DNA of 64,000 nucleotides. It comes from Cucumis sativus. Its lineage: Eukaryota > Streptophyta > Magnoliopsida > Cucurbitales > Cucurbitaceae. The notes beneath the pieces are model-generated. The model made no database searches. It was not told the origin of the DNA and saw only the letters and a program-made list of their open reading frames with translations. Positions 5,120-54,050 of the stretch are shown one piece after another (within the stretch, counting starts at the first letter, position 1; each line of letters opens with the position of its first letter). Location: contig NC_026659.2 in NCBI RefSeq assembly GCF_000004075.3, positions 27,422,272-27,486,271 on the forward strand. Direction: 5' to 3'. Both the position numbers and the translations under genes were made by a program.

Positions 5120-7646
5120 TTACTGACTGCCTCCTCCGCCGCATGTTCCCTCCGAAACCGACGGCGATTCCGTCACTGAGTCAGACCCGTCATGGAACGG
5201 CGACACCTCAACCCCACGGAGCTCGTCGATCATCTTCACCACGTGGTTCATCTTTGGCCGTTGATCTGGCGAAGCGGCTGTACAAGCCAAGGCAATCTGC
5301 AGAAGCCCCACCATTTCCTCTTCGATGTCTTTGTATCTCATCAGCTCCAAATCAAAAACCTCCGCCGTCCATTCCTCTCGCACCACTGACTGAACCCATC
5401 GTGGCAAATCCAATACGCTGCCGTATCCACCGCCTCCTGGCCCGCCGTTCTCCACGACGGAGGGGCATTTTCCTGTCAGCAACTCAAGGAGAAGAACCCC
5501 AAATGAGTACACGTCGGATTTCTGGGTCAGTTTTCGGTCATCACCGCATTCCGGCGCACGGTAGCCGTTGGTTCTGGGAGTGGAAGGGGGAGTGAAAAGG
5601 GACAATCCGTAATCAGAGACTCGAGCGTTTCCGGATTGGTCCAAAAGAACGTTGGTGGATTTAACATTGCCATGTGCGAGCTTGAGGGACTTGCAGGAAT
5701 TGTGAATAAAAGCCAATCCTCTAGCTGCCCCGGCGGCGATCTTCAACCTCGTCGTCCAATCCAACGGCGTCCGTCCAGGGCCTCTGTTTCCTATCAAACA
5801 GTCAAAAAAAACCATTACCATTCAACGGACAAATGGGCGGGCCACTACAAACAATCGATGGGGCTATCTCCATCTTCTACTTTTGGGTCATTTTCATGGA
5901 AAACAAACGAAATCAAACAATTTAAATAAAGGGAGGAGCAGATAAAGTAAAGACAGAATTATTTATTTGGTAGGGCATGGCACTCTGTTCCTCCATTGTG
6001 AATAGTAAAAATCTAAAAATCCCCACTCCAAATTTGCAGATAAGCTGCTACTAATCCAACACTTTCGATACGGCCATAAATGTTGCTCCCTTGTCTGGGA
6101 ATTGACACCGCTCAAAATTATTAACCCTAAAAAATAAAATCCATGTCCGTTTGACCAACTTCAGAGATTCAACAATGGAGGAAAAACTATGTTCTTAGAC
6201 TACGAACAACATGGCTTAATAAAAACTAAATTGCAAAATGGAAAAACAAAAAAGAAAAAAAAACCCAGAAGAATAAAAGGCAAAATAATGATGGTTACCA
6301 TGAAGAAGCCAGAACAAGCTGCCATTGGGCATGTAATCATATACCAATAACTTCTCCTCTCTAGCAAAATAGTAAGCTCTCAAGCTTACAATATTTGCAT
6401 GTCTTAACCTTCCCAAAACTTCCATGTGCTGCTCGAACTCTCGTTTCCCTCCAACCTGCGCATCTTTCAGCCGTTTCACCGCCACCACATTTCCGTCGTC
6501 CAGAATCGCCTTGTACGAAGTTCCGAAACCACCTTTTCCGAGCATTTCCGCAGAGGCTCGAAGCAAATCTTCGAGCTCAAACTTCTTGACTCCCTCGAAG
6601 AACACCATTCGGCCTCTCTCAGTTCCGGCCTGAGCCGGATATGGACTAGAAGAGTAAACAATCTTCTCGCTCTCAAGGAGCTTCGACGAGCCCTTACCTT
6701 CTCGGGCTTTATCAGCAGAATTTTTCCAAAAATAGCAGTAGAGAAGAAGCGAGACCAACGCTAACACCACAACGTCGCCAAGAATTATAGCTATTAAAGC
6801 TAGAGAACCTATCTTTCCCGTGCCATGATGGTGGGTATTTTCCGGCTTTGTTTCGGCTGTAACTTCGGGAAGGGAAGTCGGAGAAGATGAAACCGTGAGG
6901 TTCCGTGGCGGTGTAATGGGTGAAGCAATTGCCCCTTCTGATCCAGGTTCCGTCGGTTTACTGACAATGCTCTTGCAACTCTGAAGAGGAGATCCACATA
7001 AACCCATGTTCTGTCCAAACGAAGACTCAGGAAATGCCGACAACGATTTGGGGATTTCGCCGGAGAGACGATTCTCCGAAATATTGAAGTCCTGAAGATT
7101 CGGAAGGTTCAGTTCCAAAATGGGTCCAGAAAACCGGTTATCTTCGAGCCGGAGAGTGAGAAGATGAGTCAGACGGTTAACAGAAGCCGGTATCTCTCCA
7201 GTCAGGTTATTGTGAGAGAGATCGAGACGGTAAAGCCGGACGAGGGACAGAAGAGAAGCCGGGAGGTTACCAGAAAATGCATTGTAGGAAAGAAATACAA
7301 GTTTGAGAGCTTTGAAGTTGGAGAGATCGGGAATGGGACCAGAGAGACGGTTCCGCTTGAGACTCAGAACACGTAACTGAGTCAAAGCAGTAAGAGGTCC
7401 GATAGTGCCTGTAAGATCAAGGTTCTCAAGAACCAACCTCGAGACCCTGTCTCTGAGGCAAGAAACACCATCCCAAGCACATGGGTTAGAAGTAGAGTTC
7501 CATGTGGTTAGCTTATTCCCTTTATCAGAAGCTGCTTTGAACGCCACTAAAGCATCTAAATCTATGTTCGAAGAGGCATAAACACATGTAAAGTAGAGAA
7601 AAGATACAAAACAAGCAAAATGCGACAGCGAAGTAGAAGCCGCCAT
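5120..7646 (-). CDS. Inactive LRR receptor-like kinase, At1g68400 type
   Basis: Two exons, 7646-6299 and 5790-5120, join in phase (CAT G | GA AAC) to give 672 residues, close to the roughly 670 of the Arabidopsis relative. ATG 7646 starts a good signal peptide ([13 protein letters not shown]); an upstream in-frame start at 7796 would bury it. Order: signal peptide, LRRNT ([21 protein letters not shown]), about five LRRs, Ser/Pro/Thr-rich stretch, membrane helix near residue 290 ([20 protein letters not shown]), pseudokinase. The P-loop GKGGFG and VAVK lysine are kept. The catalytic loop is [11 protein letters not shown] rather than HRD, and DFG is DYG, so phosphotransfer is unlikely. This is normal for LRR-III kinases, which act as ligand co-receptors or scaffolds at the plasma membrane. 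The single intron at the HG-N site is also shared by the ZAR1-like gene at 45.8 kb. Confidence 0.93.
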
Positions 7647-10600
7647 TGTTGCTCTGCAAGAAAACTCAGAGAGAGAAAGAGGAAATGAGGTTGGGAAAAG
7701 AAAGGGTTTTAGAAGTGTTAAAAGAAAAGGAGGGAAGAGAAGAGGAAGAGGAAGAAGAGTAACGGAAGTGTAATTAATGGAAAATAAAGGGGACAAAGAA
7801 GACAGTAAATTTTGGTATTATTTTACCGGTGAGTGAGAGAGCCGGGCCGGACCGGACCCTTGGAGTATGAGGAACTGAAAAGGCTGTAACCTGTACTTTA
7901 TTAACTGGGAGATAATATTTATACGAAGTGACACAAACACCCCTCCCAAAAAATTACCGTTGAAGATATTGGTTACCAATTTTTATGATTATGATTTATG
8001 CCAATCAATTTTAGTTTTAAAAAATGAAGTTTGTATTTTTTATTTTTTTAATCAGTTCTTTAATTTTTTTAAATATAAATGGAATAATTTGGACGGAAAG
8101 TAAAAAGGAATATTTTTAAAATTTAAAGATTTATAATTTATCAAAATGTGAAGATCAAAACTTTACAACTCTCATAGTTCTCAAATTATATAAAACATTT
8201 AATACTACAAGCAAACAAAAACCAAGCTGCCTAATGTATAAACACGAATAATAGAATTTGGAAGTAGACAGTAGTCACTTAAGTTTACACGATGAATGTC
8301 GATATATAGCATTTGCTACACACTGTATTTATTCTATCGCTTTTTGTTTTATATATAGAGCTTCTTAGTCTATTTTCATTAGAAAGAGATAAAAAAAAAG
8401 TGTCAACTAATCATTCTTAGTCAATTCAAGATAGTTAGCATGGCCAACTCATCAGTCGATCAAGCTTCCACCTACATCCACACATATTGGTCAAATTTAT
8501 CTTATGCGTACTTTTTCATAGTCTGCACTAGGTGTCTCTTCGTTTTGTAATTTTACATGATACATATTATACATCGTCTTTAAAAAAAACAATAAATTCA
8601 TTCAAAATTAACAATATTTAATGGCCAAATATCATAAAAATTAAAACACATATCAACATACTATTCTACCAAACTATAATTTACATTCATACAAAAATGA
8701 AAATATAGTGTTTAATGTAATAATAATATATTATAGTGAATATTAAAATGACAACGTACAAGAGAGCATGAAGTTGATTGGTGGAATTATTACAGCTCGG
8801 ACAGGAAAAGGACGGAAAACGGTGACACGTGGAAGAAAAATTAATTAAAAGGGAGACTGGCAATGCCATTTATGAGCAGCGTGTGAACCACGCTCCACAA
8901 TCATACGAAACACCTGATGACACGTGTCCATGACGCGCGTGTCTAATCTGGAGTGTATTTAATGCAATCCTTTTCCTTTACCAAATGCCATTTCGCTAAT
9001 TTCCATTTTCCACCTTTCTTTCTACCTTTTAATTTTATTCTTCTTTATTTCCCCTATTTTTTTCTTAAATTAAATCTTTGTGTTTAAAGAATGCATTCAA
9101 TTATTCCAACTGCTTTCATTAATATTCTCCACCTTCTTCTTATTAAGTCCATAAAGTAATTAGACAAATGGGTCCTATTTCGTGGACATGTCCTTCACAT
9201 TTTTTATTTTGTAAATATGATAAAAGGAAGAAGACATCGACGGTATGCTTTAAGATTATCTCGACCTAGTTAAAAAAAATCGAGATATTTTTGCATGAAG
9301 AACATAGTAGTGTATGTTACAAATCAAATTGCGACAATTGTTTCGTGAAAGTCAAATCAATCACTCTTTTAATTTATCTCTCAAAAAATAAGAAGATGGT
9401 TGTTGATTCCAACGACAGTGGTTGAATCAACGAACAATGAGATAACACGTGACAAGATATCTATACACGTGTATAACATGTTCAGTATAAATAGAAAATT
9501 CAATCGTTTATTCATAAAACAACATATACCTAAATATTAGTGTATAAACATATGAATAGTACATTAATATGTTAACTATATATTTGAATGCAAACAAACT
9601 ACTTAAAAAGAAATGGGTGAAGAAGGTGAAAAGAAATGGTTGATAATGATATAGAGAAAGTTATTCTTTGGAAGCTGCAAAAAATAATGTATTAACTTTA
9701 TTTTTCTGCTTTTGCTTTTTTAAGCTTTTTTTTGCTTTTCTCCTCTGTACAAATTTATATAATACAATTATTTGTCATTATTGTCCTTTTCTATTTTCCA
9801 CAATTTTTAAATATCAAACTATAATACATATTACTGCTAATTACTGTCCTTTACTTTGTATCATTAAGATTGTTAATTATTATTATTATAGTTAGCAACA
9901 ATCGAGGCCTTTTTCTAATCTGGTCCACTAATCATCAATTTAATTTAATTATTTTTTTATTATTTCATTAATGTTTTCACCTTCCCCTCGTGCTGTTCAT
10001 ATTTTATACTTTAATGTCTCATCAATAAATACATTAGAATATCAAATTATTAGAGTTGATCTATCTCTTCTTTTTTAGATGCTTGCAAGTGGTCAATCTG
10101 ATTACTAATTACTCACTCATCCAGTATCCTTTTAGTTGTTAAGAAGGCAATTAATGAAACTTAATTCATGTTTTGGTAGGGTAGTTCCAATCTTTTATCT
10201 TTATCGTTTTCGTTTTGAGTGTTAGGAATAGTTTTGAAGGTCTGCTCAATGTATATATGTTCTTACCCTTAGTCCAAAGGATATACTAAAACTAGTTTAA
10301 ATCATGACGTTTCTTTTTCTTTAGCAATGCTGATAGGTTGCACCTAATCTCTCTATTCGAAAAAGGAAATCATTTTTCCAAATGACAGTTTTTCATTGGG
10401 TGCACCCTAATGTCTGTCTCTGTAAGTGTTCTTTTTGTTGCGGTCTTACCTTCCTTGGTAACTCAAATATTTAGTTGAAAATTTATCTGTTTGAGAATAG
10501 TTTTTTTGCAATGATAGAATACTTGACATGACACAAATCCCCTTTGTCTTCAATCCCTACTTTAATCATTTGTTAAACTAATGTTAATATTTAAAATACT

Positions 10601-17967: not shown

Positions 17968-20495
17968 TTAGGACTTAGATGATATTGAAGTTGAAGCACT
18001 AACAAATGAAGTTGAGCTTATCCATTTATCAGCAACAGAAGTAGGGGACAACAACTGCTGCGTTTTGTTCTTCAACAATTGAATCTCATCATACTCTGGA
18101 GAAGGAGTTGGATTATAGCTCTTCAACAATGCACTGTTATCTAGCAAATTCTCACTTTCTTCCCCATTCTCAATCCTCTTCAAAGTTTCTAAGGCTTCTT
18201 CCATTGTAGGTCTTCTTTCCTTGTCTTGCTGCAGACATAGAAAAGCTAGCCAGGCCACTCCCATTATCATCCGTCTAACGTTTTCATCCGATTGATACCC
18301 AAGGCATGGATCGACCAGCTCGTCAATTTCCTGTCTTAGAATTTTGTTCACAGCTAAGTTAGACAAGTTAATCTCATGTCGATGCCTTGTTATATCAACA
18401 GCTGGCATTGACGAAATAAGCTCGATTAATACGACGCCGAAACTATAAACATCACTCTTGGTTGTAAGCTGATAACACTGGTAATACTCGGGATCCACAT
18501 AACCAGGGGTCCCTTGAGGAGCAGTTGAGACATGACTAACATCGTTTGGGAACCATCTAGAGAGCCCAAAATCAGCAACTTTGACAGAGAAATTATTATC
18601 TAAGAGAATATTAGTAGTCTTCACATCACGATGAATGATATCCGAAGCATGGAGATAAACTAAAGCACTTGCTGTTTCAATGGCAATGTTCATCCGAATA
18701 GGCCATGTAAGCAAGCTAGAACTTGCCTGTTCTCCATGGAGATGATCAGCAACAGTGCCATTTGGAATAAATTCATAAACGAGGAGAAGTTCCCGACTGC
18801 GTTTTGAAGTACATCCATAAAGGGAGACGAGATTTCTATGGCGAAAGCGGGAGAGAATTTTAACCTCATTCATGAATTGCTCTACTCGTCTATAGTTATG
18901 TTGATAAAGACGTTTCACAGCAACTTCCCGGCCATCATGGAGTTTGCCTAGTTGAGTGAAAAATCAAGGTTGTCGACCATAAGTTTCTTACGGATTTATT
19001 TAATATGCTCCGTCAAACAAAATTCGACAAATACAAGTACAGCAAAAAGGGTGTTTTTACTTTACCGTGGTACACGGTTCCAAAACCACCATCACCAAGT
19101 TCTTTATCACGATCAAATTTGTTAGTGGCCGTCTCGAGTTCGGTATATGAGAAAACAGGGACTTCAAAGCACACACCACCACCATCATCTACGTCAAATT
19201 TTGAGTAGGGTTCACAAGATATATTCCTTGTTAGGATATTCGGAGCAGGCCGCCTTCTTCTGCGGTACCAAAGAGCAAATAATAACAAAAGCAAAATTAC
19301 ACCTGAGAATCCAGCACCTGGAGACAAAAGGGAGGGGGAACATGAGTCAAGAGTTTTGATCAATTCGACAAACAACTAGAGAATAACAAGCGTAAATAAA
19401 GTTAGTGCATGTGGGCGGTGGGGAGATCACACGCAGTGTCTATCGACTTCAACCAAATTTAATAACAAATTAAAACTTCTGAAAGAAAGTTACCCACCTA
19501 GTGCAATCTTCAATTTCTTAAGTTGATCTGCAATAGCAATGAAAAAGAGTGGTGTTAGTTTCAAACGAATAACCATTCTTCGTAGAATAATCCAGCGTTT
19601 GTTCTCAGGAGTACATATCATACACAAGAACACACTTCAAAAAGACATCTGAAAAATCAATACCAATTTTCAGTAAAAATAGGAGGAAACAGAGAAGGAG
19701 AAATGAAGTACAAAGTAGGAAATTGTGACACACAGAGAAGCCGCAAAACCTAATCTAAATAATTCAAAGTACCGTCTACTGGACTTCTGCACAAAGGTCA
19801 ATACCTTTTCTACTTTTTGTGTTTTCACCTTCACAAACGAAGTATCCTGGGGTATCCGAGCATTGGCCTCCTCTATGAAAACATTGTTGACAAGGAATGG
19901 ATATGGTTACTTGAAGTTGGAAATCAGAAGTAAACACAACAATTGAGTTATTGGGACCAACGGGGCGAACTGGAACAACAAATTTAGACTTGGAAGTGAG
20001 ACAGTTGGGTGAAGCACTAGTGTTGAGGTATGTGTAGTAATCAGGGCAATTAAATGAACTGATGAAAAGAGGTAAAGCGTCTTTAGGTTTTTCTGTACAA
20101 TAATACATAGTAAGATTGTTATCTGTGGATAAAGAAGACAAAGAAGATATTGGAAGAGCTAGATCATCGAGAATAGTGCAATTGCGAGCATTTATTCGCT
20201 TCCGAAGTTCTTGGTCATTGATATGGATGACATTGGCCTGAGAAATGGTAGTAACATCAAACCATAATTCTTTTCCACGATTGAGCTGGATTTTAGGCTG
20301 TCCCGAGCAGTTTTTAACTGTGTAAAATCCACAATCAGTCAGCGACATATTGTTAAAAGGGAATCCTATGAGGCCCAGATTTCCACATTCGAAGGGCGTG
20401 CAAATTGGATGAACGTATCTGGTATCATTCCAAGCCAACGAAAGTGCCACTAGATGAGAGAGAACAAAGGACAAAACGAAACAGAATGACGCCAT
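17968..20495 (-). CDS. LRK10-like receptor kinase A (RD kinase, LRK10L-1 type)
   Basis: Four exons: 20495-19805, 19527-19498 (30 nt), 19317-19066, 18947-17968; all GT-AG, phases agree, 650 residues. Exon 1 has a signal peptide (MASFCFVLSFVLSHLVALSLA) and a Cys-rich galacturonan-binding type ectodomain (CGNLGLIGFPF, FNCPDYY, CQQCFHRGGQC), suggesting a cell-wall-facing receptor. Exon 3 starts with the membrane helix (GVILLLLLFALWY, followed by a run of arginines). The kinase has VAVK lysine, IIHRDVKTTNILL, ADFGLS and GTPGYVDPEY, so it is an RD kinase predicted to be active. Exon 1 must splice at AAAAG|GTATTG; later cut points run into stops. The ectodomain is nearly identical to that of gene B at 24.2-26.4 kb, whose kinase is of another subclass. 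In Arabidopsis, relatives act in ABA and defence signalling. Confidence 0.9.
19945..20452 (-). repeat. Near-identical ectodomain tract, copy A
   Basis: About 508 bp that match 25802-26309 with only two base differences that I can see. Sequence on both sides is more diverged (about 12 differences in the adjoining 140 bp of exon). The length is the same in both copies. Best read as a gene-conversion tract. Confidence 0.8.
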
Positions 20496-22013
20496 ATAGA
20501 ATTCAGTATTCGTATTACCAGGGAAAATAAACCCACCTCGAATCCCAAATCTACCTCTCAGAACTGTTTATGATATCTAGGGTTTCCAGCCAGGTAGGGA
20601 AATCTTCATGAAACTGGACGAAAAGAGAATAAAAATCAAGGTGGGGGCATCCTCCAGAAATTTACAACGCAGTCTATGGGAAAATACGGTTCGATGAAAT
20701 GGAGAAATCCAATATACGCTCAATTGACCAGCCATTACAACGACTTGACTCTTTGACTCTTCATAATCTATATTTGAACAGTCAAAATTGAGGCGATAAT
20801 TAAATGAAGGCTCTTCGTCATCTGTTGCATAACGCTACCCAAACTTAAGCAACTTCAATATCCATCTATCGTTCTCCATGGTCAGAAGTCTTCGCCCAAA
20901 ATCAACCGACGGCACGACAAAGTCAGATATTAGTTGTAGAAAAAGAGAGGATGGTGAATAATAGCACGCGTCTATGACTGAAATTTTCGAACATCACAAA
21001 ATAGAGAAACGTAAGATGACCAGAGTGTTAATAGTGTGAATGGGAAGAAGAAAACTGAATAATCATCTTCTTGGTCGATGAAGAAATTACGGAGCTTCAG
21101 ATGAAACGACGCCGTTCTCTCCGTATCTTCGCCGGTGAAAGTGATAGAAGAAGAAGAGTGGGTTTCACAAATATATTCAAAGGTCTAATCATCACAGGTA
21201 CTGACCTTTATAGTTTATTGTTACATAGGCCTTCTTTTGTTGTTTTCTCATCCAAAGGGAAACATTTGTAGAGACCCAACTTTGTGTTGTTTTTAGATCG
21301 AAAGAGAATAAATTGATACATTTAAAATTTACAAAATGTTTGCATCTTATTTTCTCTATGGATGTTCAATAAAGTTGGGAGGAGAAAGGAGAAAAGAGAA
21401 GTGTAATAATGAATGAGTGACGACGTGTTTGTATTAAATTCCATAAATGGGAAGACAACTTGCCCTTAGTGTCCACATTTACCCCGGGGGTTCCCACATA
21501 GACATACCCACTTGCTCTTAATAGAAACTTTATGATTATTTTGTCAATACCCTTTGCCCTAATCCCAATGTAAACCAAATCCACCCACCCATATCTTATA
21601 ATACTTCACATGTTTTTGTTTAGGAGAGAAGGGTTGAAGTATTAGTCAATTTTCAAGTTTTATGGATACAAACACTAAGTAATGTTTTTGTCAACTTTTT
21701 TTTTTTATTTTAGGTTATTTTCCTTTATTCTAACTAAATATTTTTATCAACCCACACGAATCAAAAAACATAAAGCATACTAAAAGAAATAAAATCCTTT
21801 TCATCTCATATCAAAATACGATGTCACAAAACCTTTGTTTAATAGGTATTAGAGTTGAACATTTGTAAGTACCTCATGTTGTAAACAAGTGTGAAGTGTT
21901 TTTCTAGATATTAGAAATTTTATGCAATAAAGCAAAGATGAAAGTTTAATATATTTGAGTAAATCGTTTTTAGTTGGGGATAAATGAAGCAGAGAAATGG
22001 ATGGAAGACGGAA
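20496..22013. other. Spacer between receptor kinase A and the orphan ectodomain exon
   Basis: The first 250 bp resemble the 5' flank of gene B (for instance the stretch near 20533-20575 against 26390-26432), so the duplication included the promoter-proximal region. No kinase-coding sequence is present here. The remaining 1.2 kb is AT-rich without a gene; it would be intron if the orphan exon splices onto gene A. Confidence 0.6.
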
Positions 22014-22592
22014 CTAACCCGGCGGAGTACAGTGAAAGGCATGAGGCCGATCAGGACAATAACACTTGAAAAAATGAGTCGACTCATCAAATCCACAGTA
22101 CCCACCACTTTTGTTACAAAATTTACACTCTCCGGCCGTCCATTCCACTATCAACCCATTTCTCTCCGCCTCATCCCGGCTTTCCTCTCCGTCGCAAATG
22201 CGGTCCTGTCCGTCGCCGAGGCTGAACCGTTCGTTTGCCAAAACGGAGAGGTTCCGAATCAAAGAACTACACTCAGCCGCTGATGAAACAGCGTGGTCGG
22301 AGAGGCGGAGGGAGTGTTCTTCGTATGAAATACTGCGGACGGAGAAATCCCTGCCGGCGAGATTAAGGATCGGGTGGCCGTTTTGATGACATTTCAGCTG
22401 AAATCCCGGGTACCCACAAAACGACTGTTGGCGATTTTGGATGTAAAATGGGTATTGAATTGTTTGATTGTCGCCGCAGGTCATCGGCTGGCGGCAGTCC
22501 TCGAAGTGGAAGTCGACGGCAGCAGAGGGGGTGGATTTATCCGGGAAGAGGAGAAGGAGAATGAAAATGAAGATGGGGAGATTGGACACCAT
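22014..22592 (-). CDS. Orphan LRK10-like/WAK-type ectodomain exon without its own kinase
   Basis: One open frame of 192 codons with signal peptide (MVSNLPIFIFILLLLF) and a cysteine-patterned galacturonan-binding ectodomain: CGDNQTIQYPFYI, FCGYPGFQLKC, RNLSVLANERFSL, then the C-terminal module RNGLIVEWTAGEC and YCGFDESTHFFKCYCPDRP. Compared with the family, about 70-80 residues seem to be missing between the two modules, in frame. No kinase or membrane helix follows before gene A. The end (CCGG|GTTAGT, exon end 22019) is a usable donor in phase 1, the same phase as gene A's exon 1; joined to gene A exons 2-4 it would make a 611-residue receptor. So it is either an alternative first exon of gene A, a short secreted protein, or a decaying fragment. 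Confidence 0.6.
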   Translation of the reverse strand: MVSNLPIFIFILLLLFPDKSTPSAAVDFHFEDCRQPMTCGDNQTIQYPFYIQNRQQSFCGYPGFQLKCHQNGHPILNLAGRDFSVRSISYEEHSLRLSDHAVSSAAECSSLIRNLSVLANERFSLGDGQDRICDGEESRDEAERNGLIVEWTAGECKFCNKSGGYCGFDESTHFFKCYCPDRPHAFHCTPPG

Positions 22593-24159
22593 CTGGGTTT
22601 AGAAGATAAGAGAAGAAACAAATTTGAGGGAAAACAGAGAGGATTTGATTGAAGTTTGAGGGATTTGGGGGTGTGAATTGTGGGTGGAGTTGAAGAACTA
22701 GTGGGTAATGTTGTGTCTAAGTTAATTGAATTTCAGAGTATGTGTGCCTCAAATCATAGACCGTTGAATTTCTGTATAGTTTCATCAAATCCACATCCAC
22801 ATCCTACACATTTTCGTTTCTTTTTGTGTATATTGTTTGACTCTTTGACTTTCATGTGCTCATTTAACAAGTGCTTTTATTCAATAAGTCTTTGTGTTTC
22901 TTGTCAACCGACCTTAATTTAATTGTATGCTTAATTAACATGTCATTATGTTAATATTATGGGGTTTCTTGCATTGAATCCTCTCATTTCAATTGGACTA
23001 AAAAAAGTCTTCATCTTATGTTTCCTTTCTTCTAATAATCCATCTCTAGTATCTTCTTATCCTTAAACCTCCTATGTGAGTGTGCCACGTGACGCTTATT
23101 ATTACTGTTTTGTAAAATGTTTTTCTTTGTGTTTTAGAGTAGAAGATAAGTATGTTATTAGTTGCAACTTAGGATAGGTTTTTTTAAGTTTGTGCATCAA
23201 AAAGAGGTGATTAAGGCATTGAATCGACCTACCAAATGATAGTAATTTTGTTGAACTTACTGAGGGAGCTCCACCTAGAGACAGACAACCTATACGAGAT
23301 TTAAGAGTCAAAACGTATTAAGTCCATTTTTTTTTTCTCCCCTTACTATTCTCTCTTCCTCTTTGATTGTCCATCTTCCCTCTACTTTCATAAACGTGAA
23401 AAACAGATCGAAACTACCATAATCAATATCATTCTTTGATGAATTGGAGGAGCAGAGTCAAACAGAGAGATCAGTATTGATATCAAGCATATTTGGTCAA
23501 TACCCAATCGAGTACAACCATGTTGTCGTCTTTTCTTTTTTACTCAGCCACACCCACAAAAAGTAAAGCATGGGTTTTAGAAAGAAAGATAGAACAAATA
23601 TTGAGATTTTTTCATCATATAATAATTATACGCTTACACCTCACGCCTCCACTACTTTTGGGGCCATCAACATCCATAATTCCAAAGGGCTTTGGCCTCT
23701 TTCTGCTCAATTATTGACATTCTTTATGCTTTCAAAACAAAAAACTTTCTAAAACCAAAGTAGAAATTCACTCCCCCAGTGTCACATTCTGGGTAAAGCA
23801 TATTTCCTGGAGATTGTTTGTTTTAATGGCAGAAAATGAAGGGTAGGGAACAGAGAGAAGGGAGGGGAAGGAAAAAACTTGGGTGTAGTCACTGCAGGTT
23901 GCACGACTGCATCCATTGAAAAAATAGCAAGTTCTCGTTTTTGTTTTTGCTTTTTTTGTTGGAAAATATTTTCTTCTACAAAAAAATCTAGGATCTGTAT
24001 CGTTGGATGATACATGATTAAATTCAACAAAATCTAATTTTACTATATCAACTAATAATATTGGTTTGGTTGCTATATAAAACTATAGACTTCTGCTCTA
24101 TTGAACTTTCCTTAATATAAGTACAGGCAAGAAGAGGCAGCAAAAGACATTATACTTAA
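22593..24159. other. Intergenic between orphan exon and gene B
   Basis: Contains the putative promoter of the orphan exon and the 3' flank of gene B. A CCACGTGAC box is near 23091. Short ORFs on both strands lack motifs. Nothing else recognised. Confidence 0.5.
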
Positions 24160-26358
24160 TTACAAGGATGAAGAAGAAGAAGAAGGAGGAGGGTGGAGAA
24201 AGATAGCAGGAGGTCCAAATAAGGTCGGCTTGGCCGGAATTTGTAAGTTATCAACACTCCCTTCCAACATCTCAACCACATCGCTTATTGATGGCCTGTC
24301 CTCCGGCAACGTCTGTATACAACACAGTCCGACAATGATCATTTTTCTTGCCATTTCTTGTTCTTCCTCCGTTCTTCCCCACCAATGCGCTCTATCTATT
24401 CCACTTTTTTCCAAATCCTTATATATCCAATCCGGGAAGTACTCTTCTTCGCTGATCTCCCCAACTCTTAATTCATCTGGTCTCTTTCTTTCACCCACCA
24501 TCTCAAGAACCAACATTCCAAAACTATAAACATCAGACTTATGCGAAACTTTGCCAAAGTTTCTATACATTACTTCTGGCGCCATAAATCCCGCAGTCCC
24601 CTTTGCACCCGTCATCGACACGTGACTCTCTCTAGCCTTGCATTGCTTGGCAAGCCCGAAATCCGAGATTTTGGGACAGAAGTCATCGTCCAAAAGAATG
24701 TTGTGTGGTTTGATGTCAAAATGAAAAATCCTCGTGTTGCAGCCTCGATGCAGGTACTCTAATCCTCGTGCTACGCCCATAACTATGCTATTCAACATTT
24801 TCCAATCCAAAACTTGTTCATTTTCTTTTTGTTGCCCTCTTTGAAAAATGTACTTATCTAATGACCCTTTAGACATGTACTCATAAACCAATGCTCTTTT
24901 TCCCTGTTCGTAGCAGAAACCAAAAAGCTTGACTATGTTTACGTGTGAAGTTCTTGTGATGCTAACGACTTCATTCATGAAGTCTTCATCGTTTTCTGTG
25001 CATTCATTCAGTAGTTTCACTGCCACTTCACGGCCATCGGGTAATTTCCCTTTGTAGACAGAGCTGAATCCTCCTTGGCCAAGCTTGTTCTTGAAGGAGT
25101 TTGTGATTTTCTTTAGCTTTGAGTGAGTGTATCGCTTGGGAGTGTGGGTTGAATATCTTCCAATGACTTCATTAATTTTGTTTTTGTTTGACATGCCTTT
25201 TGTTTTGTTGTAGATGATGATGAAGATGATGATGATGGATATTACCGTAGTAAAGCTCCCTAAAGGAATTGAAATTGAAAAAGTAGTTCAAAATTCATAT
25301 CATTGGTAATAAGGCAATAAGATACACCATGCTGAAATTTGGTGAGATGGTATATAAAAAATATAGTGAAAGCAAAACGAGAAGAGAGAGCTAAGCGTGT
25401 ATATATAAAATTAGTATATGAGGGAGAGTGGGAGATCAGTTGCAGCAGTGTTTATGAATTTGAAGCAAATTTAGAAAAAATGAAAACTTCTTAAAGAAAG
25501 TTACCCACCTAGTGCAATCCCCCAAATATCAGGTTTTGCTGCAATAGCAATGAAAAAGAAAATATGTTAGTTTCACGCACAGAAACCAAACCACAAAACC
25601 TAATCTAGATAATTCAAAGTCTACCGTCTCTATAACTGGACTTCTACACAAAAGTCAATACCTTTTCTACTTTTTGTGTTTTCACCTTCACAAACGAAGT
25701 ATCCTTGGGTATCCGAGCATCGGCCTCCTCTATGAAAACATCCTTGACAAGAAACGGATATGGTTACTTGAAGTTGGAAATTAGAAGTAAACTCAAGAAC
25801 TGAGTTATTGGGACCAACGGGGCGAACTGGAACAACAAATTTAGACTTGGAAGTGAGACAGTTGGGTGAAGCACTAGTGTTGAGGTATGTGTAATAATCA
25901 GGGCAATTAAATGAACTGATGAAAAGAGGTAAAGCGTCTTTAGGTTTTTCTGTACAATAATACATAGTAAGATTATTATCTGTGGATAAAGAAGACAAAG
26001 AAGATATTGGAAGAGCTAGATCATCGAGAATAGTGCAATTGCGAGCATTTATTCGCTTCCGAAGTTCTTGGTCATTGATATGGATGACATTGGCCTGAGA
26101 AATGGTAGTAACATCAAACCATAATTCTTTTCCACGATTGAGCTGGATTTTAGGCTGTCCCGAGCAGTTTTTAACTGTGTAAAATCCACAATCAGTCAGC
26201 GACATATTGTTAAAAGGGAATCCTATGAGGCCCAGATTTCCACATTCGAAGGGCGTGCAAATTGGATGAACGTATCTGGTATCATTCCAAGCCAACGAAA
26301 GTGCCACTATATGAGAGAGAACAAAAAACAGAGCGAAACGGAATTTGATATCACTCAT
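24160..26358 (-). CDS. LRK10-like receptor kinase B (non-RD kinase, LRK10L-2 type) with gene A's ectodomain
   Basis: Three exons: 26358-25662, 25538-25509 (30 nt), 25259-24160; GT-AG, phases agree, 608 residues. Signal peptide (MSDIKFRFALFFVLSHIVAL) and Cys-rich ectodomain match gene A almost base for base over 508 bp. The micro-exon has the same length and phase as in A but codes AKPDIWGIAL in place of DQLKKLKIAL. Exon 3 begins with a membrane helix (VISIIIIFIIIY) encoded by a GAT/ATC trinucleotide run, then a kinase with GQGGFSSVYKG, VAVKLL, FHFDIKPHNILL, ISDFGLAK and GTAGFMAPEV. HFD replaces HRD (catalytic Asp kept), so it is a non-RD kinase, a class common among immune receptors. The C-terminus ends in a serine run from a GAA-type repeat. 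The kinase is only distantly like gene A's. Confidence 0.9.
25213..25240 (-). repeat. Trinucleotide repeat coding a membrane helix
   Basis: A GAT-type repeat on the plus strand is read as ATC codons on the minus strand, giving the isoleucine-rich core of gene B's transmembrane segment. Confidence 0.7.
25802..26309 (-). repeat. Near-identical ectodomain tract, copy B
   Basis: Partner of 19945-20452; equal length, two differences seen, both synonymous. It ends at the signal peptide on one side and at the last cysteine module on the other. Confidence 0.8.
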
Positions 26359-27264
26359 GCTTAACTGAAGAAGAGAAACAAAAACAAAAACCCAACCTCG
26401 ATTCCTATATCTACTTCTCCGAATTGCTTATGATTTCAAAGAAACTGGACGGGAAAAAGATATAGAAACGAAGGTTTCATAATTGAGTTGAGGCCTCTAA
26501 TTTCGCCCAGTTGACCTGCCATGGACTTGACTCGGTCTATGAATTGGACAATTTTTTTCACAGAAAGAAAATGAAAGATTAGAGGGATTGATTGAATAAA
26601 CTCGAGGTTTGAAAAATCCCATATGGATGGAAATTTCGAAAAGAAAAAATCGTGGAAGATAATGAAAGTTGTCTTATAGTTGATAAAACTTTTATTATAG
26701 CTTCATCACACTAATTCACAATTTTTATAGGGTAAAACAACATTTGCAACCATATGCTTAAATGAATGTTGATCACTCACAAGTCACTCTTTGGCTCTCT
26801 TTTTCTCACACCCTCTCTCTTCATCGGAATTGGTCCCGTCGAAGTTGCTCGTATGGACTCATCTTGCCGAAAAGATGAGGAGGATGTATGCCGTAGAAGA
26901 AGACGCAGAGGAAGAGAAAAGGGAGAAGCAGAGGGGAAACAAAAAAACAGTACTCGATGATAACATCAGCAAAAGACATTTTGACATTAAAAAAAAAAAG
27001 AAGAAAAAAAACGGATAGTTTGCATTTCGACTTTTGGGCTATTAATTCAAAAGATTTGTAAAAGGGACACTGTGGAGAGACAAGAATCGAGTCCAGTGGG
27101 GACGGGGTTGCGGCTATTCCGCCTCCAAGTTCTGCTCATGCAAAATTCTTCACCTCACCGATCGTCGATTTCTCAGACTGTATTCTCATTCAAGGCTCAC
27201 CCCTCATATTTTTTCTCGCTGGGGAACTGCTGACTTCCCACTTCGTTCACCCCCAAATCCTTAG
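26359..27264. other. Divergent spacer: gene B promoter and F-box gene 5' region
   Basis: Genes on the two sides point away from each other. The left 150 bp is related to gene A's 5' flank. An A-rich run is at 26988-27012. From about 27080 to 27264 the sequence looks like the leader of the F-box gene, ending in a plausible donor (TTAG|GTTTGT). Confidence 0.5.
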
Positions 27265-44804: not shown

Positions 44805-45806
44805 GATCCTTATACTTAAATCAAAATTAAAGTCTTAAATGGTTACAAAATTATAAACTAAATTTGCTTATAAAAATCTATAAATATAAAGCTTTATTTC
44901 TCTTATTTATGACGTTTCACACCAACATGATTGACCATTAAATAGAGTGATGGATGGGATAGTTGTTGAGAGAAAAATAAACATTTGGCAAAATCTATTT
45001 GTTTTTAATGGGAAAATTAAATAAAATACAAAAAAAGAAAAAAGAAAAAAGAAATTGTGTTTATTTTATTTATTTAAAAAAGACAGTCTCCTGACAAACA
45101 CTTGTCAGGAAAGCAAATGTCTCCATGAAACTGCATGTAGCTTCCCGACAGCTTATGGTGGAAAAATGATGAGATGAGAGCTTTTCCCAATCTCTTATCA
45201 AATACCATTTCTATATTTCCTTCATCTACACATTTTCACTTCTTTAATATTATTCATCTGATACTTAGAACACCATCATCTTCATTTTACTGTGCTACCT
45301 TTTTAATAATTGTTTGGTGCCATAGTTTCAACTTCTATCTTCTACTACTAGACATTTGTTTCATCTAATTAAGTCTTAAGATTTCTATTCTTTTATATTC
45401 TATCTTATAGATACATCAATCAATATGAACTAACCAAATTGCATTATTGAAAGTAGTGAAATAATTTTTGGGCATCATCACTCGCTCTACTTTTCTCTTT
45501 TTACCATAGAATATTTTATTGGTTACTAAAAGAATAGTTTAATCAGTCACTAGAAGTTAAAATACTTTTCTGCTTTGTGGAATAGGATTACCTTTTTCCT
45601 ACTACTAGCCATTGAAATGCTCTTCCTTTATTATCTCTCTCTCTAAATAATTTAGACTTTTGGTTTGGAAAAGCTTTACTTTTGAGCTTTCTCTACTCCA
45701 TCCCTGTTGCTTATCCATCCCCAGCTCTCTTACCTTCCCTTTTATCACTCAGTTTAGTTATTTACCCAGTTTTCTCTTTTGCAGAGAAGCTCAATTTCAA
45801 GTTTCC
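44805..45806. other. Promoter region of the ZAR1-like gene
   Basis: AT-rich DNA with the hairpin at 45089-45110. A CT-rich leader starts near 45625 (TCTCTCTCTC). An ORF that continues upstream of ATG 45807 in the same frame is taken as leader, because the signal peptide starts at the internal ATG. Confidence 0.5.
45089..45110. repeat. Perfect 9-bp hairpin
   Basis: TCCTGACAA and TTGTCAGGA are exact inverted repeats around a 4-nt ACAC loop, about 700 bp upstream of the ZAR1-like gene. No T run follows, so it is not terminator-like. Confidence 0.8.
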
Positions 45807-48053
45807 ATGGCAAAAATTCCTTCAGTATCCTTTTTTTTTCTCCTCTGCAACTTATTATGTCTTTCTATGGCTTCTTTGAACAATGAAGGCAATGCCCTTT
45901 TATCATTCAAGCAATCCATTACTGAAGACCCGGAGGGATGTCTTAGCAACTGGAATTCTTCAGATGAAACCCCATGTAGTTGGAATGGAGTTACATGCAA
46001 AGATCTAAGAGTTGTTTCTCTTAGTATTCCTAGGAAGAAACTTAATGGGGTTCTTTCTTCTTCTCTAGGGTTTCTGTCTGAGCTTCGTCATGTGAATCTG
46101 AGGAGTAATAAACTCCATGGAACTTTGCCAGTGGAGCTTTTTCAAGCTAATGGAATTCAAAGTTTGGTGCTTTATGGAAATTCCTTCACTGGGTCTGTTC
46201 CAAATGAGATTGGTAAGCTAAAAAACCTTCAAATCTTTGATTTGTCACAGAATTTCCTTAATGGGTCATTGCCTGTTTCCTTAATGCAATGTACAAGGTT
46301 GAGAATTCTTGATCTTAGTCAGAATAATTTTACTAATTCTCTGCCTAGTGGGTTTGGTTCCAGTTTGAATTTCTTGGAAACGTTGGATCTTTCTTATAAT
46401 AAGTTTAATGGTTCAATTCCAATGGATATTGGTAATTTGTCTAGCTTACAAGGCACTGTTGATTTCTCACATAATTTGTTTTCTGGCTCTATCCCACCCA
46501 GCCTGGGCAACCTTCCTGAAAAGGTTTATATTGATCTTACTTATAATAATTTGAGTGGTTCAATACCCCAAAATGGTGCTCTTATGAACAGAGGACCAAC
46601 TGCTTTTATTGGGAATCCTGGCCTTTGTGGACCGCCGTTGAAGAACCCATGTTCTTCCGAAACTCCGGGTGCGAGTTCTCCGTCCTCATTCCCTTTTTTC
46701 CCGGACAATTATCCGCCTGGGAGTTCTGAGGGTAATGGTCATAAGTTTGACAAAGGTGGGTTGAGTAGGAGCACTTTAGTTGCAATAATCATAGGCGACA
46801 TTGTAGGTATTTGCCTCATCGGTTTGCTGTTTTCGTATTGCTATTCGAGGTTTTGCACTCATAGAAATGGGAAGAAGGCAGACCAATCTAGTTATGGATT
46901 TGAGAAGGGTGAGAAAGGAAGAAAGGATTGTCTCTGCTTTCAAAAGAGTGAATCTGAGAACGTTTCAGAGCATATCGAGCAGTTTGATTTGGTACCACTG
47001 GATTCACAAGTGACATTTGATCTTGACGAACTTCTCAAGGCATCAGCATTTGTTTTGGGAAAAAGTGGTATCGGGATCGTGTATAAAGTCGTGCTTGAAG
47101 ATGGACTCACTTTAGCTGTGAGAAGATTGGGTGAAGGTGGTTCTCAAAGATTAAAAGAATTTCAAACTGAAGTTGAAGCAATTGGGAGGTTGAGGCATCC
47201 AAATGTTGTTAGCCTTAGAGCATATTATTGGTCTGTTGATGAGAAACTGCTTATTTACGATTACATCCCAAATGGGAACCTTGCATCTGCCGTTCATGGT
47301 AAGTTCTCTTAACTTTCTTGCCACTAAAATTCTCTCTTTACCTAGTTTATGATTGTTTATCATATGTAAAACCTTTAAACATCTTCAGGGAAGCCCGGAA
47401 CAACGTCGTTTACACCTCTACCATGGTCTGTTCGGTTTGGAATCATGATAGGCATTGCAAAAGGGTTGGTTTACTTGCACGAGTATAGCCCCAAAAAGTA
47501 CGTTCATGGTAATTTGAAAACAAACAACATACTTCTTGGACACGACATGACACCAAAAATTTCTAATTTCGGGCTAGCCCGCCTTGTTAACATTGCTGGA
47601 GGATCACCAACCGTGCAATCGAGCCATATAGCAGAGGAAAAATCACAAGAGAAACAACTGAAGTCTGCCACCTCTGAAGCTAGTACATTCAGTTCTAGTA
47701 TGAGTACTTACTACCAAGCCCCTGAAGCGTTGAAAGTCGTGAAGCCATCACAGAAATGGGACGTTTACTCATATGGTGTGATATTACTCGAAATGATCAC
47801 CGGAAGATTGCCCATAGTTCAAGTGGGAACGTCAGAAATGGATCTTGTTCAATGGATTCAACTCTGCATTGAAGAAAAGAAGCCGCTTTCAGACGTAATA
47901 GACCCGTCATTGGCTCCAGACGACGATGCTGACGAGGAGATCATAGCGGTTTTGAAGATAGCATTAGCTTGTGTTCAAAATAATCCAGAAAGAAGACCTG
48001 CAATGAGGCATGTTTGTGATGCTTTGGGCAAGTTGGCTGTCACTCCAAACTAA
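45807..48053 (+). CDS. ZAR1: LRR receptor-like protein kinase, ZAR1-like
   Basis: Two exons, 45807-47298 and 47389-48053, give 718 residues (about 716 in Arabidopsis ZAR1). ATG 45807 precedes a clean signal peptide ([20 protein letters not shown]); the upstream in-frame start at 45660 would place 49 residues before it. LRRNT ([17 protein letters not shown]), about seven LRRs, [10 protein letters not shown], membrane helix ([20 protein letters not shown]), then a Cys-containing juxtamembrane stretch and an atypical kinase. [10 protein letters not shown] takes the place of the Gly loop, the VAVK lysine is Arg (LAVRRL), HRD is HGN ([13 protein letters not shown]), and DFG is NFG (ISNFGLA). These losses are family traits. 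Arabidopsis ZAR1 is needed for the asymmetric division of the zygote and binds calmodulin and G-beta. Confidence 0.92.
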
Positions 48054-53189: not shown

Positions 53190-53503
53190 TATTTATGTTA
53201 ATATAAATATTTTGCGTGAAATAAAAATATTAGAACAATTACGTGTAAAGTAAAATATTTAGAAATTGTAATTGAAGGTCATTTTAGGAATAATAATTAA
53301 GGATGTAGCAATACATGTAAACTATTGCATATAAACTTGTATGACTCATATGATCTATGATAGACTTCTATCATTTATAAAATTTGATAAATTTTATTAT
53401 ATTTGTACTTTTTTTTAAACATTAATATATAATTAATTACTTTAAATCTAATTGTCAAATTTACAACTATATACTCTCACCGAACCCTAACCGAAAATGT
53501 TTG
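53190..53503. repeat. Direct repeat, left copy (AT-rich)
   Basis: Starts at ATTTATGTTAATATAAATAT and ends in CTCACCGAACCCTAACCG. Matches the right copy at 53690-54050 at roughly 95 percent over the first 230 bp. Confidence 0.75.
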
Positions 53504-53689
53504 GGATAGTTGCAAATTTAGCAATTAAATTCAAATTAATTAAGTATATAGCACAATTTTAAAAAATTTGTAAATATAGTACAATATAGCAAAATTTGTC
53601 AAGTTCTATCAACGAAGTCTATGATAGTTTTGCTATATTTATAATTTTTTTAGAATGTTACCGTATCCTTAATTATTTATGTTAATATA

Positions 53690-54050
53690 AATATTTATGT
53701 TAATATAAATATTTTGCGTGAAATAAAAATATTGGAACAATTACGTGTAAAGTAAAATATTTAGAAATCGTAATTGAAGGTCATTTTAGGAATAATAATT
53801 AAGAATGTAGCAATACATGTAAACTATTGCATATAGACTTGTATCACTCATATGATCTATGATAGACTTTCTATTATTTATAGAATTTGACAAGTTTTAT
53901 TATATTTATAAATTTTTTAAAATATTATTATATAATTAATTACTTTAAATCTAATGGTCAAATTTACAATATTTGTGGTCAAGTGATGGTCTATAATTGA
54001 TATGTTTTTGTGAGTGATATACTCTCACCGAACCCTAACGGAAAATGTTT
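53690..54050. repeat. Direct repeat, right copy (AT-rich)
   Basis: Same order as the left copy, about 502 bp downstream, with an extra stretch of about 46 bp before the shared CTCACCGAACCCTAAC end. Inside and between the copies are 'gatagacttctat' type motifs that I associate with abundant cucurbit repeats. Lies directly in front of ELP2. Confidence 0.75.

Follow-up and report, generated by a model that had tools for sequence, protein, structure and literature searches.

Here we describe a 64,000-nucleotide stretch of the Cucumis sativus genome (contig NC_026659.2; hereafter the window) that carries two tandem receptor kinase genes, A and B, and, between them, an isolated ectodomain exon, C. 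An earlier note on this DNA had proposed the two genes; both are present on the minus strand, and their predicted exons give uninterrupted proteins of 650 amino acids for A (20495-19805, 19527-19498, 19317-19066 and 18947-17968) and 608 amino acids for B (26358-25662, 25538-25509 and 25259-24160), with GT/AG at every predicted join. The features of the locus are as follows.

17968..18947, minus strand: gene A, RD kinase exon, motif HRDVKTTNILL (Pfam kinase hits on 17968-18963; RD clade)
19066..19317, minus strand: gene A, transmembrane/juxtamembrane exon of LRK10L1 type (splice joins; DNA match to K2)
19498..19527, minus strand: gene A, mini-exon of 30 nt, phase 1 in and out (AG/GT joins, open frame)
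19805..20495, minus strand: gene A, exon 1, coding for the ectodomain and a signal peptide judged by eye (open reading frame and splice joins)
19393..20642, minus strand: A copy of the duplicated cassette, from the proximal 5' flank into intron 2 (counterpart of B 25402-26475)
19944..20452, minus strand: core of excess identity in A, a probable conversion tract (compared with B 25801-26309)
22019..22592, minus strand: C, orphan exon coding for an ectodomain of the RD-linked (LRK10L1) type, between the two genes (Pfam GUB_WAK_bind and WAK_assoc; ectodomain tree)
24160..25259, minus strand: gene B, transmembrane region and non-RD kinase in a single exon of LRK10L2 type, motif HFDIKPHNILL (Pfam kinase hits on 24160-25287; non-RD clade)
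25509..25538, minus strand: gene B, mini-exon of 30 nt, phase 1 in and out (AG/GT joins, open frame)
25662..26358, minus strand: gene B, exon 1, coding for the ectodomain and a signal peptide judged by eye (open reading frame and splice joins)
25402..26475, minus strand: duplicated cassette in B (homologous to A 19393-20642)

On the predicted joins, both genes match the LRK10L build, in which an ectodomain exon is followed by a phase-1/phase-1 mini-exon and then by one or more membrane/kinase exons. Their ectodomains appear to be of a divergent LRK10-like (GUB_WAK_bind/WAK_assoc) type: a profile of the A and B pair matched 10 family ectodomains with an hhalign probability of 95% (E 2.4e-8). 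Pfam gave no useful hit on the A and B ectodomains alone, the last WAK_assoc cysteines are missing from A (by eye), and a structure model of the B ectodomain, built from a 3-row alignment, reached a mean pLDDT of just 32.5. NCBIfam hits were confined to general kinase models, all below cut-off, with the ectodomains giving none; a PDB sequence search likewise returned general kinase hits for the kinases and none for the B ectodomain. As expected, the B ectodomain had no match in a search of plasmids.

The two genes share a cassette that comprises the proximal 5' flank, the single ectodomain exon, the mini-exon and the first part of intron 2. A blastn comparison of the window with itself paired A 19699-20487 with B 25546-26344 (799 bp, 94.2% identity) and A 19393-19563 with B 25402-25575 (176 bp, 76.7% identity, E 7e-28); the ectodomain exons have 93% protein identity. 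Weaker similarity, left unmentioned in the earlier note, is also found 5' of the start codons, reaching approximately A 20642 and B 26475 (blocks with E 2e-9 and 0.002), and the local score of the two 5' flanks, 167.5, exceeds the maximum of 120 among 300 random window segments. Homology farther upstream was unsupported after removal of the proximal 160 bp (score 71.5; 95% level 86). At the other end, no similarity between A and B was found past approximately A 19393 and B 25402, a breakpoint that agrees with the 19390 and 25395 claimed in the earlier note and puts the join in intron 2. A genome DNA search with the B exon had two matches, B and A themselves, and a protein search had three, the third of which was non-significant (E 0.08). 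The equal 30-nt mini-exon, also claimed earlier, is there in both genes; it is weak evidence for a swap because similar phase-1/phase-1 mini-exons occur across the family (like-phase mini-exons in 9 of 11 scanned regions, A and B counted, judged by eye from a mechanical list).

This cassette stands before two unrelated transmembrane/kinase modules, one of RD LRK10L1 type in A and one of non-RD LRK10L2 type in B. The motifs that define the two classes read as previously given, and the A and B kinases, at 34% protein identity and in separate clades, are indeed unrelated beyond general kinase likeness; the RD and non-RD kinases split at 100/100 in a 13-row tree. Over 100 bp, the transmembrane exon of A matches its counterpart in K2, an RD gene of the C1 cluster, at 73% in DNA, and the A kinase is 62-71% identical in protein to five RD kinases, including one from the C4 locus. 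The B kinase protein is 68-75% identical to five kinases of C1 and 52% identical to one of C4, and in DNA it matches the five non-RD kinases of the C1 cluster at 73-79%. By place and motif, the C4 RD kinase would be the published CsLRK10L1, and the C4 non-RD kinase is presumably CsLRK10L2.

The separate ectodomain and kinase trees that the earlier note had suggested are in conflict: the kinase data reject KA and KB as sisters (p-AU 3e-33), and a tree in which the ectodomains follow kinase class is rejected by the ectodomain data (p-AU 3e-6), values that lean low in that several AU groups were named after tree inspection. Elsewhere in the family, the RD kinases K2 and K8 are sisters yet carry different ectodomains (E2 and E8 together rejected, p-AU 9e-9). 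A derivation of E8 (C1) from a non-RD gene is not established: when EA and EB are left out, the RD-linked ectodomains can share one side of the tree (77/58).

The two-gene picture of the earlier note was incomplete, having overlooked exon C. C groups with E2 and E13, the ectodomains of RD genes, at 100/99 (12 rows) and 96/100 (14 rows), and its placement with the non-RD-linked set is disfavoured (p-AU 0.02). It is probably the displaced original first exon of A. What C does today can be read in two ways. That it is a dead relic, or the remnant of a third receptor gene that lost its kinase, with no role in A, is in our estimate slightly better than an even bet. Its ectodomain is shortened, by about 60 residues relative to E2 and E13 (by eye), and its position equals that of the middle gene at C4, Csa4M410840, for which PMC7649820 reports no sign of transcription and which, from the order of parts, would correspond to the orphan ectodomain E11a. 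Both of these points, together with the failure of a mini-exon scan to find a convincing mini-exon of its own for C before A, speak against the other reading, in which C functions as an alternative first exon for the RD kinase and A is a gene with two switchable ectodomains. Yet the reading frame of C is open and its donor intact, which sits poorly with a relic: C holds both Pfam domains and a phase-1 GT donor, and joins in frame to either the transmembrane exon or the mini-exon of A. Two ectodomain exons stand upstream of a single kinase in 4 of the 6 RD loci examined, and AtLRK10L1 is expressed from two promoters as two transcripts (Shin 2015 as cited in PMC12479429). On balance we regard an alternative exon as doubtful, if conceivable.

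Within the cassette, the extracellular exon is shared as the earlier note had claimed, but its near-identity is uneven, reaching 99.6% in the middle with more diverged surroundings. Across 1014 aligned columns A and B have 71 differences, of which the 509-bp core holds 2, both silent, and an identical run of 334 bp. Divergence around this core is 15-24% on the 5' side, where the edge is sharp; on the 3' side, where the edge is stepped, it is 6% rising to 19% (7, 6, 12, 17 and 19% in successive steps). By part, it amounts to 24% in the 5' flank, 17% in the mini-exon and 19% in intron 2. Because the core is far more alike than these three parts, it was probably homogenised after the swap. The simple exon shuffle put forward in the earlier note thus holds as far as one ectodomain cassette on two kinase classes is concerned, but the near-identity is probably no mere leftover of it.

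A single duplication or exon shuffle with no later conversion would have to attribute the gradient to edges that differ more because they are non-coding or less constrained. The core is coding and under purifying selection (dN 0 between A and B), its surroundings are mostly introns and 5' flank, and at silent sites the core stands out only weakly when set against the two ends of intron 1 by themselves (8/99, p 0.048), all of which such a history would accommodate. However, the synonymous sites of the core are near-identical too, with 2 changes at approximately 113 sites as against 40/186 in the 5' flank and intron 2 (Fisher p 2e-7), and 6 of 39 aligned columns differ at the start of this exon (dN 0.36 and dS 0.27 over 17 codons, rough values from an ungapped pairing). 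The 334-bp run was matched in none of 20000 shuffles of all 71 differences and in 1 of 20000 within exon 1. We therefore consider a history free of conversion improbable: the core is a bounded tract of excess silent identity inside older homology, as gene conversion requires. Because the 3' divergence is stepped and the contrast with the intron 1 ends is weak, repeated conversion, or uneven constraint, may be involved. Far less plausible still is a misassembly that made two copies of a single ectodomain. High-identity tandem copies commonly cause assembly errors, but here each copy has its own graded surroundings, with the 71 differences counted above, and both genes read as complete proteins.

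Not all of exon 1 follows the core. In its last 46 codons, 10 of 10 nucleotide differences change amino acids (chance approximately 0.08 if neutral), and nine membrane-proximal residues of the ectodomain differ between A and B. Since all of these late differences are replacements, the two ectodomains may be diverging in function.

We thus favour, at a probability of about 0.8, a reading of A and B as a chimeric LRK10-like receptor pair, formed by an old duplication of the cassette, with later conversion of its core, a proposed transfer from B to A and putatively shared signals. In this history (STATISTICALLY), the cassette would have been duplicated long ago, as the 24% difference of the 5' flanks and the 19% difference of intron 2 support, and a core of approximately 0.5 kb would have been homogenised much more recently, for which ectopic gene conversion between the tandem copies is the best explanation. 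The exchange would have been safe for the reading frame because of the modular build common to family members: a single ectodomain exon, a mini-exon flanked by phase-1 introns, and then the membrane/kinase part. The position of the RD-linked orphan ectodomain C, stranded directly upstream of A, leads us to infer that the RD gene received the cassette from the non-RD gene. A direction test that compared four mini-exon/intron-2 pieces of A and B with 11 relatives was too weak to decide, with 6 of 44 scores above the 95% random-window level and one above the random-window maximum (57.5 versus 55). For the unshared piece of B, the three passing relatives are all non-RD (K3, K10 and K11n); for the unshared piece of A, the single passing relative is RD (K11); each of the two shared pieces has one, both non-RD (K4 and K7).

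A and B are predicted to be plasma-membrane receptors that probably perceive identical or very similar signals from outside the cell, perhaps derived from the cell wall, and would pass them to an RD and a non-RD kinase, respectively. RD and non-RD kinases are thought to differ in signalling. Non-RD kinases have been linked to immune receptors and show a correlation with innate immunity (Dardick and Ronald 2006 as cited in PMC4295470), and at the cucumber locus DM4.1.2 an allele of the non-RD member causes necrosis in Nicotiana benthamiana whereas the RD member has no effect, as reported in PMC7649820. One recognition surface with two outputs, as proposed in the earlier note, may hold for the pair, although the ectodomains differ at the nine residues near the membrane. 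With a near-identical ectodomain on an RD and a non-RD kinase, the genes offer a natural pair for comparing two outputs at a near-constant input, and the core of excess identity suggests that their match may be renewed instead of decaying.

Parts of this history have been described in other receptor kinases; the consulted text of PMC10868138 and PMC12382012 added nothing on domain exchange. In the CRK family of grasses, ectodomain and kinase trees conflict, and re-routed signalling is suggested by the authors (PMC6368629). That exchange differs from the one in A and B in that it involves DUF26 ectodomains and is old and lineage-wide, and not between a near-identical tandem pair. In the Arabidopsis OAK/At5g59670 cluster, recent gene conversion was proposed for an identical 2.7-kb fragment covering the ectodomain of two tandem receptor kinases; these, unlike A and B, are related members of one tandem cluster, and the available text describes no exchange across kinase classes (PMC3136440). 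AtLRK10L1 (At1g18390), with its two promoters and transcripts, is an LRK10-like gene as A and B are, and the title of the study cited for it mentions mini-exons (Shin 2015 as cited in PMC12479429).

The closest case is that of CsLRK10L1 and CsLRK10L2 at the cucumber QTL DM4.1.2, clustered LRK10L genes that are >90% identical at the N terminus and <30% at the C terminus, RD in one and non-RD in the other, and explained by duplication of a first-exon ectodomain and its fusion to another kinase (PMC7649820). Both published PCR primers match contig C4 exactly in this genome. C4 has the order found in the window, namely a non-RD gene, an orphan ectodomain and an RD gene, but is a separate locus with an ectodomain type only distantly related. 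In A and B the join falls within intron 2 and the mini-exon is included, whereas at C4 blastn similarity stops approximately 140 bp beyond exon 1; the reading frames of A and B are open from end to end, whereas at C4 the non-RD ectodomain of this genome is short by approximately 550 bp, fitting the 551-bp indel reported in PMC7649820. Because the F-box gene neighbouring the window, the one neighbour examined, has no copy near the C4 cluster, the shared order is treated as recurrent. A general LRK10L habit of cassette exchange, in which a non-RD ectodomain is copied beside a neighbouring RD kinase, the RD original is kept upstream as an optional first exon and conversion keeps the partners ligand-matched, giving one specificity and two outputs, seems to us rather unlikely. 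The A and B swap is, then, a second cucumber case of the kind published for CsLRK10L1 and CsLRK10L2, in a paper from which the term 'gene conversion' is absent, and the probable conversion tract and the repeated order of parts are the points that it adds.

We searched the cucumber genome (226.6 Mb, 88 contigs), in which the window spans C5:27422272-27486271, and compared the window with itself. Three features are central to what follows:

Gene A, 17968-20495, minus strand: complete RD receptor kinase of LRK10L1 type, 650 aa (predicted joins)
Gene B, 24160-26358, minus strand: complete non-RD receptor kinase of LRK10L2 type, 608 aa (predicted joins)
C, 22019-22592, same strand as A and B and between B and A: orphan ectodomain exon with both Pfam domains (GUB_WAK_bind and WAK_assoc)

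A and B are 94.2% identical over A 19699-20487 and B 25546-26344, and 76.7% identical over A 19393-19563 and B 25402-25575. The self-comparison found no likeness past about A 19393 and B 25402, which places the join in intron 2, as the earlier note had claimed; the proximal 5′ flank is also weakly alike, as far as about A 20642 and B 26475. The kinases are just 34% identical: that of A carries an HRD motif and is split by an intron, that of B carries an HFD motif and shares one exon with the membrane part. The pairing of one ectodomain with RD and non-RD kinases in two complete minus-strand genes (predicted joins), first noticed by reading the sequence, is real and was well placed. The window also holds two separate LRR-type receptor kinases, one at 5120-7817 on the minus strand (kinase part matching PF07714 and PF00069; LRR-like ectodomain by eye) and another at 45651-48053 on the plus strand (judged by eye from open frames), and, at 53190-53969, a 278-bp direct repeat (94% identity) with a 103-bp inverted match, perhaps a small mobile element.

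Pfam gave no useful match to the A/B ectodomain. A profile of it aligned with ten family ectodomains at 95% probability (E 2.4e-8, 178 columns); among those ten, 9/10 matched GUB_WAK_bind and 9/10 WAK_assoc. Relatives of the two kinases (KA and KB) were drawn from the whole genome, and for the closest we also read the surrounding DNA. RD and non-RD kinases of the LRK10-like kind are intermixed at three places: the window, C1 4.34-4.38 Mb and C4 18.32-18.34 Mb. The cluster at C1:4340000-4378000 comprises two RD and five non-RD kinases, plus orphan and fragmentary ectodomain exons; K4 is frameshifted, K10 has a stop, and ectodomain exon E1 (4375871-4376782), 93% identical to E4, lies without a kinase of its own upstream of RD gene K2.

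In this one genome, the kinase and ectodomain trees conflict, as the earlier note's proposed swap had led one to look for. The kinase tree (13 rows) separates RD from non-RD with 100/100 support and a KA+KB clade is rejected (p-AU 3e-33), whereas the A and B ectodomains pair with 100/100 support; a single group of the six RD-linked ectodomains is also rejected (p-AU 3e-6). RD kinases K2 and K8 are sisters (95/97), yet their ectodomains differ (E2+E8 rejected, p-AU 9e-9).

Divergence between A and B is uneven: 24% in the 5′ flank, 15% in the first codons, 0.4% (2/504) in a 509-bp core (A 19944-20452, B 25801-26309) and 7% at the end of exon 1, then 6% and 12% at the start and end of intron 1, 17% in the mini-exon and 19% in intron 2. 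The core holds an identical run of 334 bp, a length reached in 0 of 20,000 shuffles of all 71 differences and in 1 of 20,000 confined to exon 1. Both core differences are synonymous. Silent differences number 2 of ~113 in the core; intron 2 and the 5′ flank together have 40 of 186 (p 2e-7), and the intron 1 ends taken alone have 8 of 99, a weak contrast (p 0.048). Mosaic divergence and silent-site contrast lead us to read the pair, from sequence, as an old duplication followed by a probable later conversion, which may have taken two steps 3′ of the core. The swap is supported for an ectodomain common to two kinase classes, but the copy is not a uniform one. Substitution rates were taken as 5e-9 to 1.5e-8 per site per year. 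At these assumed rates the 5′ flank and intron 2 would have split ~7-30 million years ago and the core, on two substitutions, 0.6-1.8 million years ago. Over the 46 codons that close exon 1 (19806-19943 and 25663-25800) all 9 changed codons, and all ten nucleotide differences, alter amino acids, and the adjoining core changes are silent only; this pattern is suggestive only.

The equal mini-exon, present in both genes as described in the earlier note, proved not to be special to them. A mechanical scan of 11 regions for 24-45-nt phase-1/phase-1 exons, with candidates judged by eye, gave convincing ones in 9 (A, B, K2, K3, K4, K6, K8, K11 and K13), each of 30-39 nt with a hydrophobic stretch and a split Gly at the end, so that equality is a family property; downstream of C and before K12 no candidate was convincing. 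This property explains why exons can be swapped with the reading frame kept. K2 has a mini-exon region 72% identical to those of the non-RD genes K4 and K6, which suggests a second place of cross-class exchange, on C1.

C clusters with E2 and E13, ectodomains of two C1 RD genes (100/99 with 12 rows, 96/100 with 14), and the topology test speaks against a place in the non-RD-linked set (p-AU 0.02). C is ~60 residues shorter than E2 and E13 (by eye). No kinase belonging to C and no convincing mini-exon lie between C and A, but a splice from C to A's mini-exon, or directly to A's transmembrane exon, would keep the frame (predicted joins). On the simplest reading, C would have been the first exon of A's kinase until the shared ectodomain cassette arrived. 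Within the stretches read, two ectodomain exons precede one kinase in 4/6 RD loci (the window, K2, K11 and K12; not K8 or K13).

Two PCR primers printed in a cucumber paper, PMC7649820, match contig C4 exactly, among the window and the stretches read, which agrees with a genome of cucumber or a very close relative and identifies C4:18319635-18343000 as the published downy mildew locus DM4.1.2; their span is 357 bp, a mismatch with the ~250 bp stated for the reference in the accessible text. That text describes CsLRK10L1 and CsLRK10L2 at this QTL as >90% identical N-terminally and <30% C-terminally, one keeping and the other having lost the RD motif, and attributes them to duplication of the first-exon ectodomain followed by its fusion to a different kinase; it reports no sign of transcription for the middle gene, and cites Shiu and Bleecker 2003 for placing LRK10L among groups known to carry more than one or two types of kinase. 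At C4 we find ectodomain E11b with RD kinase K11, and an ectodomain fragment with non-RD kinase K11n; relative to E11b the fragment lacks ~550 bp, in agreement with the indel of 551 bp in the paper. As in the window, the order is non-RD gene, orphan ectodomain (here E11a), RD gene.

A literature search that was thin in subscription journals gave no paper dealing with the window pair or describing a conversion tract between paired LRK10L genes. A and B, whose function we infer, are a second cucumber example of an already described domain exchange. Precedents, as far as the accessible parts of the sources go, are OAK in Arabidopsis for ectodomain conversion between tandem receptor kinases (PMC3136440), the CRK family for kinase exchange (PMC6368629) and AtLRK10L1 for two promoters with mini-exons (through PMC12479429); to the described example the present pair adds an excess-identity core, the orphan exon, a modular build common to the whole family and an order of parts repeated at two loci.
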